Shown one piece after another: positions 47,206 to 57,577 of a stretch of DNA of 64,000 nt. The notes below the pieces were generated by a model, which made no database searches, was not told the DNA's origin, and saw only the letters and a program-made list of their open reading frames with translations. Positions within the stretch are counted from its first letter, which is position 1. Every line of letters begins with the position of its first letter. Location: the NCBI GenBank assembly GCA_945878555.1, contig CAMDWI010000022.1, positions 1 to 64,000 of the forward strand. The letters run 5' to 3'. This stretch comes from Klebsiella pneumoniae. Its GTDB lineage: Bacteria; Pseudomonadota; Gammaproteobacteria; Eutrophobiales; Eutrophobiaceae. The position numbers were made by a program, and so were the translations under genes.

Positions 47206-49935
47206 TCACTTCCTCGACTGCTCCACCATATCCGCCAGCCTTTTGCCGAGGATATAACTGATATTGAAGTTCAGCTTGGCCACGATGTTCGGAAAATATT
47301 TCAGATCTTTCTGCATCCGCTGATAGTCGAACTTCAGGGCGGTGATGTCGGATGTGGCTATCACATCGGCGGTGCGGTGGGTTTCCCGGATATAGCCTAT
47401 CTCACCGAATACCTGGCCGGGGCCGAGTGTGGCGAGCACGTGGGATTCATCACCTTCGCGGCGGACCACGTCGGCGATGCCGGTCAGGATCAGGTACATA
47501 CTGCGGCCGGTGGTGTCCTGTTCAATCAATAATTCGCCTTCACGAAACTCATGCAGTTCCGAGATCAGGATCGCCTTGCGGCGCTGGTATTCGGTCATGC
47601 CGTGGAACAGTGTCGATTTGGCGAGCATGTCCTCGTCGAGTGACATGGTCAGGATCTGGTACAGACCGACCAGGCGTATCCGGGTCATCAATACCGGCGT
47701 GATCAACAGGTTGGCGAGGATGGAGAACAGCATGGTCGCGGTCAACAGCGCGCCAAACTGGGCAATCACGGTGAAGCCGGAGAAGATCAGGATACTAAAG
47801 CCCAGTGCCAGCGCGAGGCTGGAGATGATCAGCGGTGGGGCAACGTCGGTGACGGCAATGGCCACAGCGGCGGTGTAGTCAGAGGTCTTGCGGCAAAGTT
47901 CATTATAACGACTGAGCAGATGGATCGTGCCGTCAACTGCAAGACCGATCGCGATCACCGCGACCATGACCGAACCGGGATTCAGCGGGATACCCAGCAA
48001 GCCCATCATGCCGAACATCAGTGCGATGGGCACGATGGCCGGGACCAGTGCAATCAGTCCGCCCTTGATCGAGGTAAACAACACCGAGACGATGATAAAG
48101 ATCAGGGTCAGCAATACCAGTAACGCATTGATCTGGGCCGACTTCAGTGTGTCTGCGGCCTGGTTAATCATCAGGTTCTGACCGACGATGTGCGCGACCA
48201 GGCCACCTCCAGCGATATGATTGACCACACTATGCAGCTCGTTTGCATACTGATTCAGCAGGCGGGAGTCGTTGATATTATGGCGGACGATGATATTGGC
48301 CCGGCTATAGTCCTGGCTGACATAACTGTCGACCTCACTGCGATGGAACAACAACATATACTGGGTGACCAGTTGTCGTGTGGCCGGTAACGCTGAGCCG
48401 GGTTGTTCACCTTGCAGTTCACGATGGACCAGCGACAGATAATCAGCAAACGAACGACTCTGATCAAATACGCCCTGCTGGGTTAAGAACGCCTGTATCT
48501 CGGCCAGTTTCTCGATATTGCGCGGGTCGAGAAATGCACCCTCGGCATTGGACTCCAGCGTGATGTAAAACTGGTTTACCCCGGCCAGTTCGTCATGGAT
48601 CAGGTTGATGTCCTGCACCAGTGGATGACGTGCTGAAAAATAGGACACCGGGTCATTGGTCACATACAGCGTAGAGGCGTGGTAAAAAAAGAAACCGCAG
48701 ACCAGCACAGTTAATAACAGGATTCGGCGCGGAAACCGATCCTGGGTCTTGCGCAGCGTACGAATGATGATACCGGGAAAACGGCTGTTGTCGCTGCGCT
48801 GTTGAAAGTAATGTCTTGGTGCCCGGCTGAACAGCGACAACAAGGTCGGCACCAGTAACAAGGTCAGGATACCGTTGGCCAGCACCGCCAGCCCGGAGGT
48901 GATAGCAAACTGCTGGACCAGGCCGATATCATTGAAAATATTACTGACAAATCCGAGCACGATGGTCAGCATGGTCAGCAGCAAAGGCAAGCCGGCCTGC
49001 CGTGCGATCAGCGTCAGGATCCCGGTGTGGTCCTGCTGGTCGGTCTGTGCATGCGCACGCATATAGGCAAGCACCAGCTGGATATTGCCGGTGGCGGCAA
49101 TGACCATGATTAACGACGGTAACATCGCGCTGAGTATATTGACCGGCATACCAACCCAGGCGAGCAGGCCAAAGGTCCAGATCATTGCCAGCACCGAGGT
49201 AATCAGCGGTATCAATGCAGCAAGCAGGCTGCGGATGCTGAGCAGGATGGTCAACACCAGTACCAGTGCGGATAAGGAGCCCAGCACCAACAGATCCCGG
49301 TACAGGTTCGTGCGCAGTTCGGCATTCATCCGCGCCGGGCCGGTCTGGAACAGACGTGAGAATTGCGGTCGTTCGGCCACAAGGACTGTTTCAATCTGCT
49401 GATACAGTTGTTCAACGTCCTCGCCTTCCAGTCGCGCATTCTCGACTGAAATAACCAGTGCCGTGGCATGTCCGTTTGCCGAGATGAAACTTCCGCGTAG
49501 CAGTGGATCTTGCAGGGCGGCATCACGCAATTGCTGGGCCTGTTCGTTTGATGCGGGTAGTTCGCTGATGACCGGTCCGGAAGATATCTTGCCGGCATTA
49601 CGCCTCAGCGTACGCACATTCAACAGGCTCTCGACCTCGGTCACGCCGGTCACACCGGCAATCGAATGATGTAATTCACCCAGGGCGGCAAGCTTGTCCG
49701 GTGTCCACAACTGTTCATCCTGGACAAAGATTATTATCTTGTTGTCCGGACCAAACTCTTCCTGCACACGCTGGTAACTGAGTCTGTCGATATTATTTGC
49801 AGGCACCAGACTGTCCAGATCCGTATTCACTTGCAATTTTGGCAATCCTGCCAGCAGGAATACAGTCAGCAACAGCACGGCAGGCACGACGATGTGCCGT
49901 TGTTTATATCCGAGCAGGAACAGGTTCAATAACAT
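47206..49935 (-). CDS. RND/MMPL superfamily transporter with C-terminal cyclic nucleotide-binding domain
   Basis: Two MMPL-like repeats (VNTDLDSLVPANN..., AIGLAVDGTIHLLSRYNEL); C-terminal ELHEFREGELLIEQDTTGRSMYLILTGIADVVRREGDESHVLATLGPGQVFGEIGYIRETHRTADVIATSDITALKFD is a cNMP-binding fold. Confidence 0.93.
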   Translation of the reverse strand: MLLNLFLLGYKQRHIVVPAVLLLTVFLLAGLPKLQVNTDLDSLVPANNIDRLSYQRVQEEFGPDNKIIIFVQDEQLWTPDKLAALGELHHSIAGVTGVTEVESLLNVRTLRRNAGKISSGPVISELPASNEQAQQLRDAALQDPLLRGSFISANGHATALVISVENARLEGEDVEQLYQQIETVLVAERPQFSRLFQTGPARMNAELRTNLYRDLLVLGSLSALVLVLTILLSIRSLLAALIPLITSVLAMIWTFGLLAWVGMPVNILSAMLPSLIMVIAATGNIQLVLAYMRAHAQTDQQDHTGILTLIARQAGLPLLLTMLTIVLGFVSNIFNDIGLVQQFAITSGLAVLANGILTLLLVPTLLSLFSRAPRHYFQQRSDNSRFPGIIIRTLRKTQDRFPRRILLLTVLVCGFFFYHASTLYVTNDPVSYFSARHPLVQDINLIHDELAGVNQFYITLESNAEGAFLDPRNIEKLAEIQAFLTQQGVFDQSRSFADYLSLVHRELQGEQPGSALPATRQLVTQYMLLFHRSEVDSYVSQDYSRANIIVRHNINDSRLLNQYANELHSVVNHIAGGGLVAHIVGQNLMINQAADTLKSAQINALLVLLTLIFIIVSVLFTSIKGGLIALVPAIVPIALMFGMMGLLGIPLNPGSVMVAVIAIGLAVDGTIHLLSRYNELCRKTSDYTAAVAIAVTDVAPPLIISSLALALGFSILIFSGFTVIAQFGALLTATMLFSILANLLITPVLMTRIRLVGLYQILTMSLDEDMLAKSTLFHGMTEYQRRKAILISELHEFREGELLIEQDTTGRSMYLILTGIADVVRREGDESHVLATLGPGQVFGEIGYIRETHRTADVIATSDITALKFDYQRMQKDLKYFPNIVAKLNFNISYILGKRLADMVEQSRK

Positions 49936-49937
49936 GG

Positions 49938-50846
49938 CTAGCGCACCCCGGTCCCGAATACTGACTGTTGCAGTTCCGGTGATATCGCCGGTTCAATGAG
50001 CGGATTTTCGACCTGTTCGTCCAGTCTATCGGCGAGTACAGCCGGAGGCTGGTTGTGATACAGCCATTCGCGGGTGAACACCTCCTCCGGGACATACTCG
50101 TCCGAGAAGATGGTACGGTTGACCTTCAACAAGGTGCTGTGATGCTCCGCAAGATTCTCCATCATCACCATACCGGCACGCCAGGATTCCGGCCCGGTCT
50201 GACGCAGGTCGTACAATGTGCGTTGTTTCTGCAAACGTCCGTCCCCGTCCAGAAAATCGGTACGACTGATGTAATAAGTGTCATCCCGCACGAAATGTCG
50301 ACGCACCGGGCGTGTGGTGGCGATATTACTGTCGGCTGCGTATACATCGAGGATGTAATGGCTGATATTGCCGATCTTGATCTGGCCTGCAAGCACATAC
50401 TGCCAGGCAGTCATCTGCTCGCCTATCATCTGTTCCAGCGTAAAGTCGGTACCCATCAAGGTCCCCCCCGGGCCGGGGTCAATCTGCTGCATCCCGGTTT
50501 TGCCGGATGCGGGCAGGTAAACCGCCAGGTTTGTTTCGCCTCCGGGGTCGCGGCTGGCCAACAGGGCGACACCGTATACCTCGGCCGGTGTATCAAACAA
50601 CAACAGCAGGCGGGTGTTGCCTGTGTTATCGCTACGGTAATAGCGGCGCAGATTGCGTGTATCCCGGTTACCCAGCCGATCGGTCAGGATCAGTGTCAGC
50701 TCTTCATAAATACTGGTCCCGAGCAGATGCCGGCGCTGCACCTCCTGCATGATCTCTGTGCCGGTGGGTGCCTGCGCAGTCTGGGCCAGCAGCAGACCGC
50801 TATGAAACAGCGATATCAGCCACAGCATGAGGATAGCCCGTTTCAT
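49938..50846 (-). CDS. Outer-membrane lipoprotein-sorting protein (LolA-like)
   Basis: Signal peptide; EIMQEVQRRHLLGTSIYEELTLILTDRLGNRDTRNLRRYYRSDNTGNTRLLLLFDTPAEVYGVALLASRDPG...LMGTDFTLEQM. Confidence 0.85.
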   Translation of the reverse strand: MKRAILMLWLISLFHSGLLLAQTAQAPTGTEIMQEVQRRHLLGTSIYEELTLILTDRLGNRDTRNLRRYYRSDNTGNTRLLLLFDTPAEVYGVALLASRDPGGETNLAVYLPASGKTGMQQIDPGPGGTLMGTDFTLEQMIGEQMTAWQYVLAGQIKIGNISHYILDVYAADSNIATTRPVRRHFVRDDTYYISRTDFLDGDGRLQKQRTLYDLRQTGPESWRAGMVMMENLAEHHSTLLKVNRTIFSDEYVPEEVFTREWLYHNQPPAVLADRLDEQVENPLIEPAISPELQQSVFGTGVR

Positions 50847-51478
50847 CTACCGACCTGTCCTCCCGGCGCGGCTGTTGCAGCGCGGACGGAATCAGCAATC
50901 TGCTGGCTCAGCTGTCCGTACAGTTGCTGCATCGTGGCGACGATATTGTCATAATCGTTTTCTGCCAACTGGGTGCTGCCCTGCAACTCCGCCTTGTGTG
51001 TCGTCAGTGGTGTGCTCTTGTCACCGCCGGATACCTGCCAGCGTGCCACCAGACTGACGATACCATCACTGCCACGTTCAAACTGCTCGATGTGGACCTG
51101 GATACGAAAATCGGGAATGCTCATCGAACGGTTCAACGGAGTGGACACATCATTCGATCCCAGCAACACCGACAAGTTACGCGCCAGTGTGCGCAGCAGG
51201 TTCTTGCGCAGGTTCTCACCCCATTGATTGGTCTCGGCGAAATTCAGCCGGTTTGCTGCACTACGGGTGGCGATGTGGAAACGCTCCAGATACTGGGGCA
51301 CCTGCACCTCCAGGATTTCGACGGCAAGCTTGTTCTCACCCGCTGTGGGCACATCCTGGTATTCAACCGGGTCAACCAGATAATAGCGCACAACCGTGCC
51401 ACCACCGCCGCAGGCCGCCAGCATCAGTAGCAGTATCAGTACAGGGACACGTGTCAGGACTGCTAGCCTCATAATCAT
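50843..51478 (-). CDS. pqiC: PqiC/YmbA-family ABC-type transport auxiliary lipoprotein
   Basis: Lipobox LMLAACGG; YYLVDPVEYQ...VEILEVQVPQYLERFHIATRSAANRLNFAETNQWGENLRKNLLRTLARNLSVLLG. Confidence 0.88.
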   Translation of the reverse strand: MIMRLAVLTRVPVLILLLMLAACGGGGTVVRYYLVDPVEYQDVPTAGENKLAVEILEVQVPQYLERFHIATRSAANRLNFAETNQWGENLRKNLLRTLARNLSVLLGSNDVSTPLNRSMSIPDFRIQVHIEQFERGSDGIVSLVARWQVSGGDKSTPLTTHKAELQGSTQLAENDYDNIVATMQQLYGQLSQQIADSVRAATAAPGGQVGR

Positions 51479-53127
51479 TCTCCTTCAGGTTGCTTGCCGA
51501 ACAACATCGACTGCGGGTTACGTTCGAGCATTTCCACCAGAGCGCGGATAGACCGTGCCATTTCCTCCAGCTCGCTGGTCATCTGGATGACGTTATATTG
51601 CATGGGCGAATTGGGCTGCAACATATTATTGGTCAGATCAACTGTTTCACGCAGCTTCTCCAGCACATCGCGTCCGGCGGTGATAGTCTGGTTCAGATTC
51701 TCGCTGTCGAGCGCATCGAGGATATTGCGGAACGACCTCATCGAGATTTCAAGATCCTCAAGCGAGGCATGGATCGCCTCTGAATTTGCCAGCTTGTTAG
51801 TACCTTCGAGCGTACCGAGCAATTCCTTGCTGATACTGGCGATATCCACTGTGTCCAGTTTTGCCACAATCGATTCGAGTGAACGGGTAATCGAGTCTAT
51901 ACCAACCGAGATTAACGTCGGCATCTCCGGTAGATCGCTGCGGGTTGCGACATAGCGCGCATTGGTGTCCGGCTCCATCGTCAACTCGACGAACAGCATG
52001 CCGGTCAACAGGCTGCCACTCTGCAGGCGTGCTCGCAGGCCCTTGCGGATCATTGCGGCTATTGTTTCCGCGCTTGACGGGACCGCATCGGGGTCGCTCT
52101 GGACGATGCGTTCCAGTTCTATCTCGAACGTGACAGGGATTCGGAAGTCGGAACGCGTGGCATCATATTCGAGACGGTAATCAACTACCGAGCCTATACG
52201 GATACCCTGGAATTCGACCGGTGCACCGATGCCGAGGCCGCGGATCGAATTGTCAAAATAGGCGACGTAACCTATCTTGCGAGTATAGGAATAATCCTGA
52301 ATCTTGCTGTGATCATCGTACAGCGTATAGACCAGGTTCTGCGTATCATCCTCTTCTGCGGGCTGTTCAACAGATTCCGGCGTTTCGAAGGCGATACCGC
52401 CAAACACGAGCGACTGCAACGACTCGGTACTGACCTTCAAACCGTCTGCATCCAGTGAGACATCCATGCCGCTGACATTCCAGAAACGCGTGTTGCCCTT
52501 GATCAGCTGGTCGTACGGGTCCTGGATGAACGCATGGACATACACATTCTGGTGATCATTGGCCAGTTCATACCCGAGTACTTCACCGGCGAGTATGCCT
52601 TTGTAATAGACCGGTGAACCGGTGTCGATCGATCCCAGTCTTGATGCGACCAACACGATGCGTTTGCCGATTGTCCCGGACAACACGACCGGTGGTTTTT
52701 CCAGACCGATAAAATGCAGCTGCGCGGCACCCTGCCCCGGTTCAATCTCGATATAGGCACCGGACACCAGTGTATCGAGCCCGGATACACCGCGAATACC
52801 CAGTTGCGGTCGCACGACCCAGAACCGGGTATTGCGACGCAGGAACGATTCGGTACCCTTGTTAAAATCGGCGGTCAGGATCACATGCGAGAAGTCCTCG
52901 CTGAACTCCATTGAATCAACTACACCGATATTCACATTCTTGTATTTGATGCGGGTCGTACCGGCCTCGATGCCGTCTGCGGTCAAAAAGCTGATCGTGG
53001 CTACCGGCCCCTGCTCCGACACAGTCTTGATAATCAACCAGCCACCGACCAGCGCGGTCACCAGCGGGATGATCCACACCAGCGAGATACCGGGCCGCAC
53101 ACTGACTTTCGGGGTTGAAACTTCCAT
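51475..53127 (-). CDS. pqiB: PqiB-like intermembrane transport protein with multiple MCE/MlaD domains
   Basis: SLVWIIPLVTALVGGWLIIKTVSEQGPVATISFLTADGIEAGTTRIKYKNVNIGVVDSMEFSED; further MCE-like repeats (DTGSPVYYKGILAGEVLGYEL; GIGAPVEFQGIRIGSVVDYRLEYD). Confidence 0.93.
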   Translation of the reverse strand: MEVSTPKVSVRPGISLVWIIPLVTALVGGWLIIKTVSEQGPVATISFLTADGIEAGTTRIKYKNVNIGVVDSMEFSEDFSHVILTADFNKGTESFLRRNTRFWVVRPQLGIRGVSGLDTLVSGAYIEIEPGQGAAQLHFIGLEKPPVVLSGTIGKRIVLVASRLGSIDTGSPVYYKGILAGEVLGYELANDHQNVYVHAFIQDPYDQLIKGNTRFWNVSGMDVSLDADGLKVSTESLQSLVFGGIAFETPESVEQPAEEDDTQNLVYTLYDDHSKIQDYSYTRKIGYVAYFDNSIRGLGIGAPVEFQGIRIGSVVDYRLEYDATRSDFRIPVTFEIELERIVQSDPDAVPSSAETIAAMIRKGLRARLQSGSLLTGMLFVELTMEPDTNARYVATRSDLPEMPTLISVGIDSITRSLESIVAKLDTVDIASISKELLGTLEGTNKLANSEAIHASLEDLEISMRSFRNILDALDSENLNQTITAGRDVLEKLRETVDLTNNMLQPNSPMQYNVIQMTSELEEMARSIRALVEMLERNPQSMLFGKQPEGE

Positions 53128-54362
53128 TAGTGGCTCACCCCACTGTCGCGTGGGTGCAGATTGTCCCAGATCAGACGCGGGTCAAAACTGTGGGCGGCAA
53201 ACATTGTGATCACCACGGATGCACCGAAGAAGGAGGCGCCGATACCGGGCCGTATTGTCGACAGCGCGTCCAGACTGACCAGTGCCGACAGGATACCGAC
53301 CAGGAAGATATCAACCATCGACCACGCCCCGACGACCTCGGTGATGCGGTACAGGCGTGTGCGGTCACGTGGTCGCCAGTCCGACTTGTACTGTACCGAG
53401 ATCAACAGGTAGGCGAGGATCATCAGTTTCATTAACGGGATGATGATGCTGGCGATAAACACTATCATCGCCAGTCCCCACATACCGCCCTCAATCAGAT
53501 GTAACACACCTGCCAGTATCGTGCTCGGCTCTCCCTGTCCGAACTGGATGACGGTCATGACCGGATACAAATTGGCCGGTAACAAAAGTATCGCCGCGGT
53601 GGCCAGCAGCGCCCAGGTACGGGTGATGCTGTTGAGTTTGCGGTGGTGGATCGGTGCTGTGCACCGTGGACAATGTTCGGTCTGTGCGTCAGCACGGGTC
53701 AACAGCCCGCAGGTATGGCAGTTCAGATGCGGTGTATCGGCCTGTACCTCTGTATGATCGGACGGGTCCCACAGTACCGACGGGTCGAAACTGGCCCGGG
53801 CAGCGGCGAAACTGATGAGCAGCCCCGTCAACGCATACAGCGAGACACCCGGTATCACATTGGCGATGTCCTGCAACTTGACGATGGAGATGAGCACAGC
53901 CAGCATGAACACACTGACCAGTCCCCACGGATTTATCGCCTCGATAAACCGGTATACCGGACCGATAGCCGCCGGACGAAACCCGAGGCGTATCGGCACG
54001 AGCAGATACAGCATGCCAACAATGGTCACAAACGGGAATACGATACTGGTCAGCAGGATCATCACACCGATATCCGGCATGCCGGTCTCGATCATCTCAA
54101 GGCCACCTGAGATCAGGATATTTTGCTCGACCCGACCACCGAGTTCGAGCGACAGAAACGGCCAGGCGTTCGCCATAACAAACAGCATCAGCGCGGTCAG
54201 GTAGAAGGCTATAGTGCGATCCAGGCTGTTCGGCACTGAACGATACAATACAGAACCACAGCGATGACAACTTGCCTTGCCACCCGACGCCAAGGGCAAC
54301 ATACGATACAACTGATCGCAATGTTGGCAGGCAATGAGTGTTGAATTCATGGTGACAGGCAC
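53127..54362 (-). CDS. pqiA: PqiA family integral membrane protein
   Basis: Two Cys4 motifs (ACQHCDQLYRM...CHRCGS; CHTCGLLTRADAQTEHCPRC) each followed by TM segments. Confidence 0.93.
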   Translation of the reverse strand: MPVTMNSTLIACQHCDQLYRMLPLASGGKASCHRCGSVLYRSVPNSLDRTIAFYLTALMLFVMANAWPFLSLELGGRVEQNILISGGLEMIETGMPDIGVMILLTSIVFPFVTIVGMLYLLVPIRLGFRPAAIGPVYRFIEAINPWGLVSVFMLAVLISIVKLQDIANVIPGVSLYALTGLLISFAAARASFDPSVLWDPSDHTEVQADTPHLNCHTCGLLTRADAQTEHCPRCTAPIHHRKLNSITRTWALLATAAILLLPANLYPVMTVIQFGQGEPSTILAGVLHLIEGGMWGLAMIVFIASIIIPLMKLMILAYLLISVQYKSDWRPRDRTRLYRITEVVGAWSMVDIFLVGILSALVSLDALSTIRPGIGASFFGASVVITMFAAHSFDPRLIWDNLHPRDSGVSH

Positions 54363-54493
54363 GGTTGATCCCCGGATGCGCTAATTATTAGAAACTTGTT
54401 ATAGCAAGGTTGATTCTGCCCATGCTCGCAGAAAAAGCCAAGTTTTTTAGCAAGTTATACCCGGATTGACGTCGCCACTCCGCCTGACCCGCA

Positions 54494-55440: not shown

Positions 55441-56751
55441 TCAAAGCATGTGCATGAACAGCGTGGCTATGCCGAGAAAACTGAAAAATCCGGCGATGTC
55501 GGTCACCGTGGTCAGGAAGATGGATGACGACTGCGCCGGGTCCTGCCCGGATACGGTCAGCATGATCGGAATCAATGCACCGGACACGCTGGCGATTGCC
55601 ATCGACAACACCATAGAGATCATGATCACGATAGTCAGGCCGATCGATTTGCTCCAGATATACACACCGAGGCCGGTAGTCACAGCAACCGCGATGCCGT
55701 TCATTACCCCGACGAGAAACTCCTTAAGCAGGATCCGTGGCCACATGCGCGGGTAGATCTCGCGCAAGGCCAGCCCGCGCATGGTGACAGCGAGTGATTG
55801 TGCACCGGTATTACCCGACTGGCCGGCAACGACCGGTAACAACACGGCAAGTGCGGTGTACTGGGCAATGGTATCTTCAAACAGGCCGACTACAGCAGCA
55901 GCCATGAAGGCGGTTGCCAGGTTTATCTGCAACCAGGGCAGGCGTTTGCGCGTAGCGAACCCGGCCGGCGACAGGGCGCGTTCGTCCTTGCTCACACCGA
56001 CCATCGTCTGCATGTCCACGCTGGATTCTTCCAGCGCTGCACCGACCAGTACATGGTAACGCAGGATACCGATAAAGCGCCGGTTGATGTCTATCACCGG
56101 CAGGTCAGTCACCTTCTGGCTTTCAAATACCTGCACCAGTTCCTCGCGGCTTGCATCTGCATCCACACAAACCGGGTTATGTCGTTCCAGAGTTGAAAGA
56201 TTATCATTGTGGTCAGCAAGTGCTACGTCTTCCATATCAATAATGCCATGCAACTGGTTCTCATCATCGACCGTATACAACTTGCGATACATGCCGTGCG
56301 GACGGCCGCGCAATACGGAGATGACCTCACCGACTGTCATGTCCGGACGAAAATACATCGCGCGGGCATCCATCAATGCACCGGCGGAATCCTCCTGATA
56401 GGTCATCGCCCGGATCAAATCATTTTTTACAAAACGCTCCTTGATCAGTTCGAGTGTTTCAAGCCGGGTCTGCTCGTCCAGTGCTTTCAGAAAACTTGCA
56501 CCAAAATTCGGTTCGATCTGGGCGAGCAGCATCAGGCGATATTCCGGGTCCATCTCCATCAGAACCTTCGATCCAAAATACGGTGAAAACCGGCGCCAGA
56601 CTTTTAATGCTGTACCCAGCGGTTTTGTTTTCAGGATGGCGGCCGCTTCATCCGGTTTGAGCTGCTCGATCTTGCGCACCGCATCGGCCGGATAGCGGTC
56701 CATAAAGATATGATTCAGCGCATTGTCTATATCAGGATTAAGTTCGCTCAT
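55441..56751 (-). CDS. mgtE: MgtE-type magnesium transporter
   Basis: MgtE N domain, CBS pair, AVVGLFEDTIAQYTALAVLLPVVAGQSGNTGAQSLAVTMRGLAL; likely start MSELNPDIDN at 56751. Confidence 0.93.
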   Translation of the reverse strand: MSELNPDIDNALNHIFMDRYPADAVRKIEQLKPDEAAAILKTKPLGTALKVWRRFSPYFGSKVLMEMDPEYRLMLLAQIEPNFGASFLKALDEQTRLETLELIKERFVKNDLIRAMTYQEDSAGALMDARAMYFRPDMTVGEVISVLRGRPHGMYRKLYTVDDENQLHGIIDMEDVALADHNDNLSTLERHNPVCVDADASREELVQVFESQKVTDLPVIDINRRFIGILRYHVLVGAALEESSVDMQTMVGVSKDERALSPAGFATRKRLPWLQINLATAFMAAAVVGLFEDTIAQYTALAVLLPVVAGQSGNTGAQSLAVTMRGLALREIYPRMWPRILLKEFLVGVMNGIAVAVTTGLGVYIWSKSIGLTIVIMISMVLSMAIASVSGALIPIMLTVSGQDPAQSSSIFLTTVTDIAGFFSFLGIATLFMHML

Positions 56752-57577
56752 TTTTCCGATCTTCCAGTCGCGTGTCCGATTTGGGCATGACGATATTGAT
56801 ACAGATTTCCCAGAACAGGTCTGCCACCTCCATGACCGTGTCCATGAATGTCTCTTCGACATGGTCAGGATTATGGTCACCGGACAGCGCCTCGAACATG
56901 ACCGAGCGTTTCAATACACCGACAAACACGTTGTTATGATCAACCACTGGCAGGATTTCCTTGAACCGCCACTTCGGATTATCCTTTACATAATCAATAT
57001 TCGAGCGGGCATTCAGCACCACATCCGGCAGACGCATCAACTTGCTGACCTCAAGCCCGGGGTCGGCAAAGACCAGATGTTTGACATCAATCAGTCCAAC
57101 CAGACGCTGGGCATCACCGATAATAAAAATGTCTCCCTGCAGTTCACTGGTCGCATGTCTGGCCGTCGTGATCACATCACTGGCCAGCATGGTATCAGCA
57201 GCGGTAAACACATTCGGACTCATGTATTGACCGACAGTACCGGCCGGATAGCGCAGCACCGAGCGCAAGCGATAGGCATAACCGGCGGGAAGTGTGTTCA
57301 GCAGCGTGACCTGGTCCGCACCTTTCATCCTGCGTAACAGGCGGGCTGCCGTGTCCATACCCAGTTGTTCAAGGATATCTGCCGCACGACGCGTTTCCAT
57401 GCCCAGCAGACAGGCAACCGCACTGCCCGGCAGGAAATAACGCAATACATTGGCGACCAGGTCATCATCATGCAAGTCAAAATAGGAGACCAGTTCGTCC
57501 GCCGGAAAACCTTCCAGCACCTTCGCTGACTCGCGCGGATGCTCCTCCAGAAAATGGCGTGACAGATTATTTATCAT
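56738..57577 (-). CDS. Soluble MgtE N-domain/CBS-pair protein without a transmembrane domain
   Basis: ESAKVLEGFPADELVSYFDLHDDDLVANVLRYF...AGTVGQYMSPNVFTAADTMLASDVI...RFKEILPVVDHNNVFVGVL; ends without TM helices, overlaps mgtE start. Confidence 0.85.
   Translation of the reverse strand: MINNLSRHFLEEHPRESAKVLEGFPADELVSYFDLHDDDLVANVLRYFLPGSAVACLLGMETRRAADILEQLGMDTAARLLRRMKGADQVTLLNTLPAGYAYRLRSVLRYPAGTVGQYMSPNVFTAADTMLASDVITTARHATSELQGDIFIIGDAQRLVGLIDVKHLVFADPGLEVSKLMRLPDVVLNARSNIDYVKDNPKWRFKEILPVVDHNNVFVGVLKRSVMFEALSGDHNPDHVEETFMDTVMEVADLFWEICINIVMPKSDTRLEDRKNERT

Follow-up and report, generated by a model that had tools for sequence, protein, structure and literature searches.

This study addresses the question of whether a PqiABC bridge of the MCE type and a transporter and carrier of other families, encoded directly behind it, work as a single envelope lipid transport system. 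The locus lies in a 64,000-nucleotide (nt) stretch of contig CAMDWI010000022.1 (hereafter the window), where five minus-strand open reading frames (ORFs), pqiA-pqiB-pqiC-lolA_like-RND/MMPL, run end to end from position 54362 to 47206, and for which a preliminary description had proposed such a system. The present analysis strongly supports a functional link between the PqiABC and LolA-RND modules, and it is quite probable that the bridge and the RND/LolA-like arm share one lipid pathway. PqiB at large is seldom linked to an RND gene; one clade of PqiB is nearly always linked to one.

The five-gene cluster

The first gene, pqiA (53127..54362, minus strand, as are all those that follow), has a GTG start with an in-frame ATG 12 nt further downstream, and meets pqiB (51475..53127), the gene of the MCE tunnel protein, in a TAATG junction where base 53127 is common to both. 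They are followed by pqiC (50843..51478), specifying an outer-membrane lipoprotein of the ABC_trans_aux family, and by a gene for a LolA-like periplasmic carrier with an N-terminal signal peptide (49938..50846; PF17131), with ATGA overlaps of 4 nt at both the pqiB/pqiC and the pqiC/lolA-like junctions. The last gene (47206..49935) is separated from the carrier gene by a gap of 2 nt (TAG CC ATG), and specifies an RND/MMPL transporter with a C-terminal cyclic-nucleotide-binding domain (CNBD). These positions and junctions, read directly from the sequence, are those of the preliminary description. Its family assignments (PqiA, MCE, PqiC, LolA-like, MMPL, and cNMP-binding) were also borne out, with all five proteins exceeding the curated Pfam cut-offs, and these families fit a role in lipid transport. 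The sole non-coding room for a promoter is a stretch of 131 nt upstream of pqiA (54363..54493, minus strand), in which a simple scan found no sigma-70 site.

Conservation and co-occurrence

An RND alignment scan, taking one genome per species, recovered 77 loci, to which four loci from a sample of the class were added. All five genes are collinear and closely spaced in 53 loci, with a median junction of -4 nt, and many of the remaining loci of the 77 + 4 end at contig edges. The collinear loci belong to Pseudomonadota (Gamma-, Beta-, and Zetaproteobacteria, Magnetococcales), Nitrospinota, Desulfobacterota, Planctomycetota, and Verrucomicrobiota, these taxa being taken from record titles of what are mostly metagenome assemblies, so that single labels are possibly wrong. 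No sixth conserved gene was detected when the flanking ORFs of 62 loci were compared all against all (the best family occurs at 12/62, at scattered distances), nor was a LolB-like acceptor of the kind present in aryl polyene clusters conserved with the LolA-RND pair among the 62.

Within the window's class, an RND relative (E <= 1e-80) was present in 16 of 274 sampled genomes. Five of these proteins, the window's counted, are of about 50% identity or more, and all five are encoded in the five-gene layout; the more distant ones have a LolA-like partner at most. Of 53 genomes in the window's order, 17 have RND and 18 have PqiB, and the two sets match except for three genomes, namely one whose contig starts within the RND gene (G275), one whose contig ends within the LolA-like gene (G298), and one with a 411-nt RND fragment at a contig end (G323). 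The Fisher p for this co-presence is 1.7e-10, a figure that serves only as a guide, the genomes being related.

PqiB-only searches were made to check for the bias that might arise from finding loci through the RND gene. Each of the 18 close PqiB loci from the window's order showed either the five-gene layout or a contig run-off, and in the class all 5 PqiBs at 53-56% identity sit in the five-gene layout. Class PqiBs of 43% identity or less, of those checked, lie in loci with pqiABC only, where pqiA is often split in two. A phylum-wide sample of 398 genomes, in which 60 PqiB loci were read, gave a LolA-like gene (together with RND where the contig reaches) at 12 loci, all of at least 47% identity, while about 44 had pqiABC only and about four were cut too short to judge. 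The preliminary description had raised the question of whether RND/LolA pairs are rarely found beside pqiABC, and the answer is a divided one: adjacency holds within the linked clade, and is rare for PqiB generally, as the 12/60 loci of the phylum sample illustrate. That PqiB at large seldom adjoins such an RND is what would be expected of a chance neighbourhood, or of the hitch-hiking of unrelated genes, but conservation, joint inheritance (described below), and the RND-blind sampling all oppose this explanation, which we regard as scarcely credible; chance adjacency was ruled out by the conservation and the PqiB-only searches.

Several loci depart from the common layout. In two clusters of betaproteobacterial type (L106, L135), pqiB leads directly into the lolA-like gene without a PqiC match, and PqiC seems to have been lost. 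A few Pseudomonadales-type genomes (L071, L073, L077, L081) carry a second MCE-like gene (single PqiB/MlaD-type) and a PqiC-like lipoprotein ORF, which lie about 600-800 nt beyond the RND stop, on the opposite strand and convergent. At L255 (1649-5353), a different and distant RND (E 2e-24 against the cluster RND profile) lies downstream of pqiC in the same orientation, across a gap of about 440 nt, and is possibly another RND-pqi pairing. Two further loci were not used. The apparent natural LolA-RND fusion at L108 is a joined ORF without the RND start and an inner stretch, and seems to result from a deletion or from faulty assembly, and the broken PqiA, PqiB, and RND pieces of L131 represent a frameshifted metagenome contig.

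Phylogeny and inheritance

In a tree of 139 PqiB sequences, the RND-linked PqiBs fall into one clade of 79 (SH-aLRT 99), except for that of L116 (Magnetococcales). Ten Zetaproteobacterial rows, in two groups inside this clade, have pqiABC only, and no RND-CNBD orthologue was found in their ten genomes, where the best matches are 21-24% identical and end before the CNBD. The pattern fits one acquisition of LolA-RND and two losses in the linked clade. RND and PqiB distances are correlated over 62 common loci (r = 0.86; highest of 2000 permutations, 0.22), a value that is inflated by the kinship of the rows and is supporting evidence only. The Nitrospinaceae are placed within the Gammaproteobacteria in the RND tree and the PqiB tree alike, which points to transfer of the five-gene block as a whole. 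Two Magnetococcales loci (L084, L116) are rearranged, with RND and pqi still adjoining but divergent, and because the PqiB of L116 belongs to another Pqi lineage, this locus is a second juxtaposition of RND with pqi.

According to the main rival explanation, the PqiABC bridge and the RND plus LolA-like shuttle are two self-sufficient routes, co-transcribed for the same envelope stress, that make no contact and maybe carry different molecules or work in opposite directions. Such parallel routes would account for the occurrence of each module alone, whether as pqiABC-only relatives, as LolA-RND pairs without pqi, or through the loss of a single module. They would also have a counterpart in E. 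coli ApeL, ApeM, and ApeN, a LolA-RND-LolB-like trio without MCE that is proposed to move aryl polyene lipids (PMC8253772). Parallel routes are harder to reconcile with a gene order and tight coupling kept over several phyla, with the transfer of the block whole, and with the lack of a conserved LolB-like sixth gene to take the carrier's load, and we consider them rather unlikely.

PqiA, PqiB, and PqiC

The window PqiA contains the PqiA domain (PF04403) in two stretches (Pfam, E 2e-94), both domains being fused in one gene, and four CxxC motifs at residues 12, 32, 215, and 231, which make two pairs of zinc-ribbon type. By domain content it is an inner-membrane protein of the PqiA/LetA family, scoring above the cut-off for TIGR00155 (292.8 bits; cut-off 260.35) and below that for PRK15103 (257 bits; cut-off 562). 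PqiB, of 550 amino acids, has three MlaD/MCE domains (Pfam, E 6e-35) and a C-terminal helical region; the NCBIfam PqiB model (NF008070) aligns over 537 residues (11-547) with 452.7 bits, under the equivalog cut-off of 525, and the alignment suggests that the helical needle is present. PqiC matches ABC_trans_aux (PF03886; Pfam, E 5e-34), has a lipobox (LAAC) at residues 20-23, and scores 53.7 bits against NF033620, short of the cut-off of 200. Because the NCBIfam scores fall under the E. coli cut-offs, the three proteins are best read as diverged family members and not as equivalogs of those of E. coli.

The E. coli PqiABC system (PMC10897342) nevertheless shares with the window the pqiA-pqiB-pqiC order, the PqiA domains and zinc-ribbon cysteines, the three MCE domains and needle region, and the outer-membrane lipoprotein. 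It differs in that pqiC is followed by rmf, and there is no carrier, RND, or CNBD, while the PqiB and PqiC of the window lie under the NCBIfam PqiB and PqiC cut-offs.

The LolA-like carrier

The carrier matches LolA_like (PF17131; Pfam, E 4e-23), the only family that Pfam reported for it, with no match to the canonical LolA model (PF03548). The folds nearest to its AlphaFold2 model (pLDDT 88.7) are those of P. gingivalis LolA3 (9tp6, TMt 0.86) and a V. parahaemolyticus protein (3bk5, TMt 0.88). LolA3, the closest solved fold, shows hardly any LolB binding, and a separate function is thought likely for it (PMC13103446); the same paper makes no mention of RND or MMPL, and, in contrast to the carrier of the window, LolA3 is not reported in an MCE or RND operon.

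The LolA fold and the Pfam family name might suggest that the protein serves PqiC or other lipoproteins as a chaperone, with RND aiding the release of lipoproteins. A separate true LolA (PF03548 match) is, however, encoded on contig C4 of the same genome, and for this reason the LolA-like protein is unlikely to be a general lipoprotein carrier. The canonical LolA likewise tells against the chaperone explanation, as do the poor LolB binding and probable separate function of LolA3, and the fact that the RND partners known for LolA-like proteins, as far as these were found, have been proposed to move lipid-like pigments and not lipoproteins. A chaperone role appears highly improbable.

The RND transporter

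The RND protein has two MMPL domains (Pfam, E 1e-38), as well as sterol-sensing and Patched Pfam matches. Its AlphaFold2 model (pLDDT 86.0) shows 12 transmembrane (TM) helices with the CNBD at the end, and ranks closest in fold to MmpL5 and MmpL4, followed by NPC1L1, HpnN, and MmpL3; the modelled fold thus resembles those of a group handling lipids or lipid-like molecules. With the MMPL/HAE3 RND family (MmpL3, MmpL4/5, HpnN; eukaryotic NPC1) it has in common the fold, the 12 TM helices, the periplasmic domains, and an Asp in TM10, but it differs in its C-terminal CNBD and in scores that fall under the cut-offs of HAE3 (TIGR00921; 211 bits, cut-off 351.9) and HpnN.

In TM10 (model helix 653-681), Asp668 (47932..47934, minus strand) is a candidate proton-relay residue, and the position is acidic in all 65 five-gene RNDs (D in 62, E in 3). 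The TM4 site, residues 283-284 (49084..49089, minus strand), is Gly-Asn in the window and Glu-Asp in most relatives (E283 kept in 59/65, D284 in 54/65); the window's two congeners (L188, L189) have Thr-Thr at this site and retain the TM10 Asp. A TM4 Glu-Asp together with a TM10 Asp is the kind of pair that serves proton coupling in MmpL proteins.

The disappearance of the TM4 acids from the genus of the window, the sterol-sensing and Patched matches, and the degenerate GGDEF domains in which RND-CNBD cousins outside the cluster end could be taken to mean that the RND-CNBD protein is a sensor or regulator rather than a pump, that is, a transceptor of the Patched/NPC1 kind, reading the lipid state of the membrane together with a cyclic nucleotide and regulating PqiABC. 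This is made very improbable by the TM10 acid in 65/65 and the TM4 Glu in 59/65 of the five-gene RNDs, and by the dedicated soluble carrier gene that adjoins RND.

The cyclic-nucleotide-binding domain

The CNBD occupies residues of about 782-908 (47212..47592, minus strand; Pfam cNMP_binding at 795-875) and scores 64.2 bits against PF00027 (cut-off 27.5; E 1e-17), its PDB relatives being the CNBDs of PKG, PKA, and SthK. The phosphate-binding cassette, residues 843-860 (FGEIGYIRETHRTADVIA; 47356..47409, minus strand), is intact, with Glu845 and Arg854 invariant in 63/63 five-gene RNDs that have the region and Thr855 found in 59/63. In kinase CNBDs, a Thr after the cassette Arg suits cGMP as well as cAMP. 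Given the invariant Glu and Arg, the predicted domain probably binds cAMP or cGMP. Since the model has 12 membrane helices and then the CNBD, the domain would lie on the cytosolic side of the membrane. Class III nucleotidyl cyclases are encoded in 28/28 tested carrier genomes and in 21/24 non-carrier genomes.

A further extension of this architecture occurs outside pqi clusters, where four RND-CNBD cousins (L034:93-3335, L035:2216-5437, L036:9567-12815, L127:1000-4182) have a C-terminal GGDEF-family domain. These fusions are about 1060-1080 amino acids long, and their GGDEF motif is not intact.

Neighbouring genes

Downstream of the five-gene cluster, the window carries a REP-type Y1 transposase gene (PF01797; 44269-45138, minus strand). 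On the other side, two MgtE-type genes lie side by side (55441-57577, minus strand). That at 56738-57577 has MgtE_N and CBS domains only, and its neighbour is a full MgtE with a likely start near 56749, so that the product of 56738-57577 reads as a stand-alone regulatory half adjoining its channel.

Comparison with known systems

The pairing of a LolA-like protein with an RND transporter has precedents in ApeL/ApeM (PMC8253772) and in Thalassolituus, where an MMPL/LolA-like protein is induced on long alkanes (PMC6304351). In the aryl polyene cluster, as in the window pair, a LolA-like carrier is encoded with an RND, and ApeL-ApeM-ApeN are proposed to supply the outer membrane with a lipid-like product. 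That system differs in having no MCE bridge, and in including the LolB-like ApeN and biosynthetic genes, both missing from the window cluster; a CNBD is unmentioned in the part available (PMC8253772). Mpc, the chimeric Mla-Pqi system of Brucella, resembles the window in that an MCE bridge and a PqiC-like lipoprotein are joined to an energised inner-membrane component, but there a Mla-type ABC transporter replaces PqiA, and RND, carrier, and CNBD are absent (PMC12436622). Searches confined to open-access PMC papers, and so without preprints or subscription journals, found no description of the five-part combination, nor was it known as one machine to the author of the preliminary description.

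Discussion

The explanation that we favour, with modest confidence, is that the cluster specifies a clade-specific variant of PqiABC in which a proton-driven RND/carrier arm acts in the same lipid pathway and is tuned by a cytosolic cyclic nucleotide. The conduit would consist of PqiA in the inner membrane, PqiB as the MCE tunnel, and PqiC as a ring at the outer membrane, with the PqiB hexamer and PqiC octamer expected of a PqiABC system spanning the two membranes, and this bridge would have gained a fixed second arm, made of RND and the LolA-like carrier. The carrier might then pass its load to, or collect it from, either the outer membrane or the conduit formed by PqiB and PqiC. Lipid cargo, proton drive, and a carrier role are suggested by the families to which the proteins belong, whereas contact between the arms, the direction of transport, and the identity of the nucleotide are matters of speculation. 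That LolA-like/RND and PqiABC hand cargo over by direct contact seems somewhat doubtful; were they to do so, PqiC or PqiB would be the candidate acceptor for the carrier's load, as no LolB-like sixth gene is present in the cluster. Binding of cAMP or cGMP would tune the RND pump, a role proposed because the CNBD sits on the cytosolic end.

Several observations weigh against this explanation. In E. coli, pqiABC works by itself (PMC10897342), and the bridge can persist without the LolA-RND arm, as two nested Zetaproteobacterial groups kept pqiABC and lost LolA-RND. Conversely, RND-CNBD/LolA pairs occur elsewhere without pqi. In the window's own genus, where Gly-Asn, or Thr-Thr in the congeners, stands in place of the TM4 Glu-Asp, the pump may have changed or lost its proton coupling. 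Finally, cyclase presence had to be dropped as a discriminator of the ligand, such enzymes being found also in genomes that do not carry the cluster. The single envelope lipid transport system of the preliminary description is supported in part: the five genes form an operon-like unit that has been conserved, and that is passed on and transferred as one block. A physical machine, with RND as the motor of the MCE tunnel and a nucleotide as its gate, is a hypothesis, and the Zetaproteobacterial losses and the LolA-RND pairs without pqi tell against strict unity.

A more specific proposal concerns energy. A 2024 study considered that PqiA, if it is a transporter, must act passively, via an unidentified ATPase, or via the proton-motive force, leaving its energy source open (PMC10897342). 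RND could be the energy source of this PqiA-type, ATPase-free MCE bridge, docking with PqiA/PqiB and using the proton gradient to load lipid via the LolA-like carrier, with the cyclic nucleotide as an on/off switch for lipid flow towards the outer membrane, but we consider a machine of this form unlikely.

The shared distribution of the five genes over many bacterial groups hints at a possible source of power and control for the bridge. With its PqiABC firmly tied to an RND of the proton-driven type, a soluble carrier, and a cytosolic nucleotide sensor, the clade offers natural test material for the power source and lipid direction of ATPase-free MCE systems (PqiABC, LetAB), and, if the explanation favoured here is true, it would suggest second-messenger control over the supply of lipid to the outer membrane.

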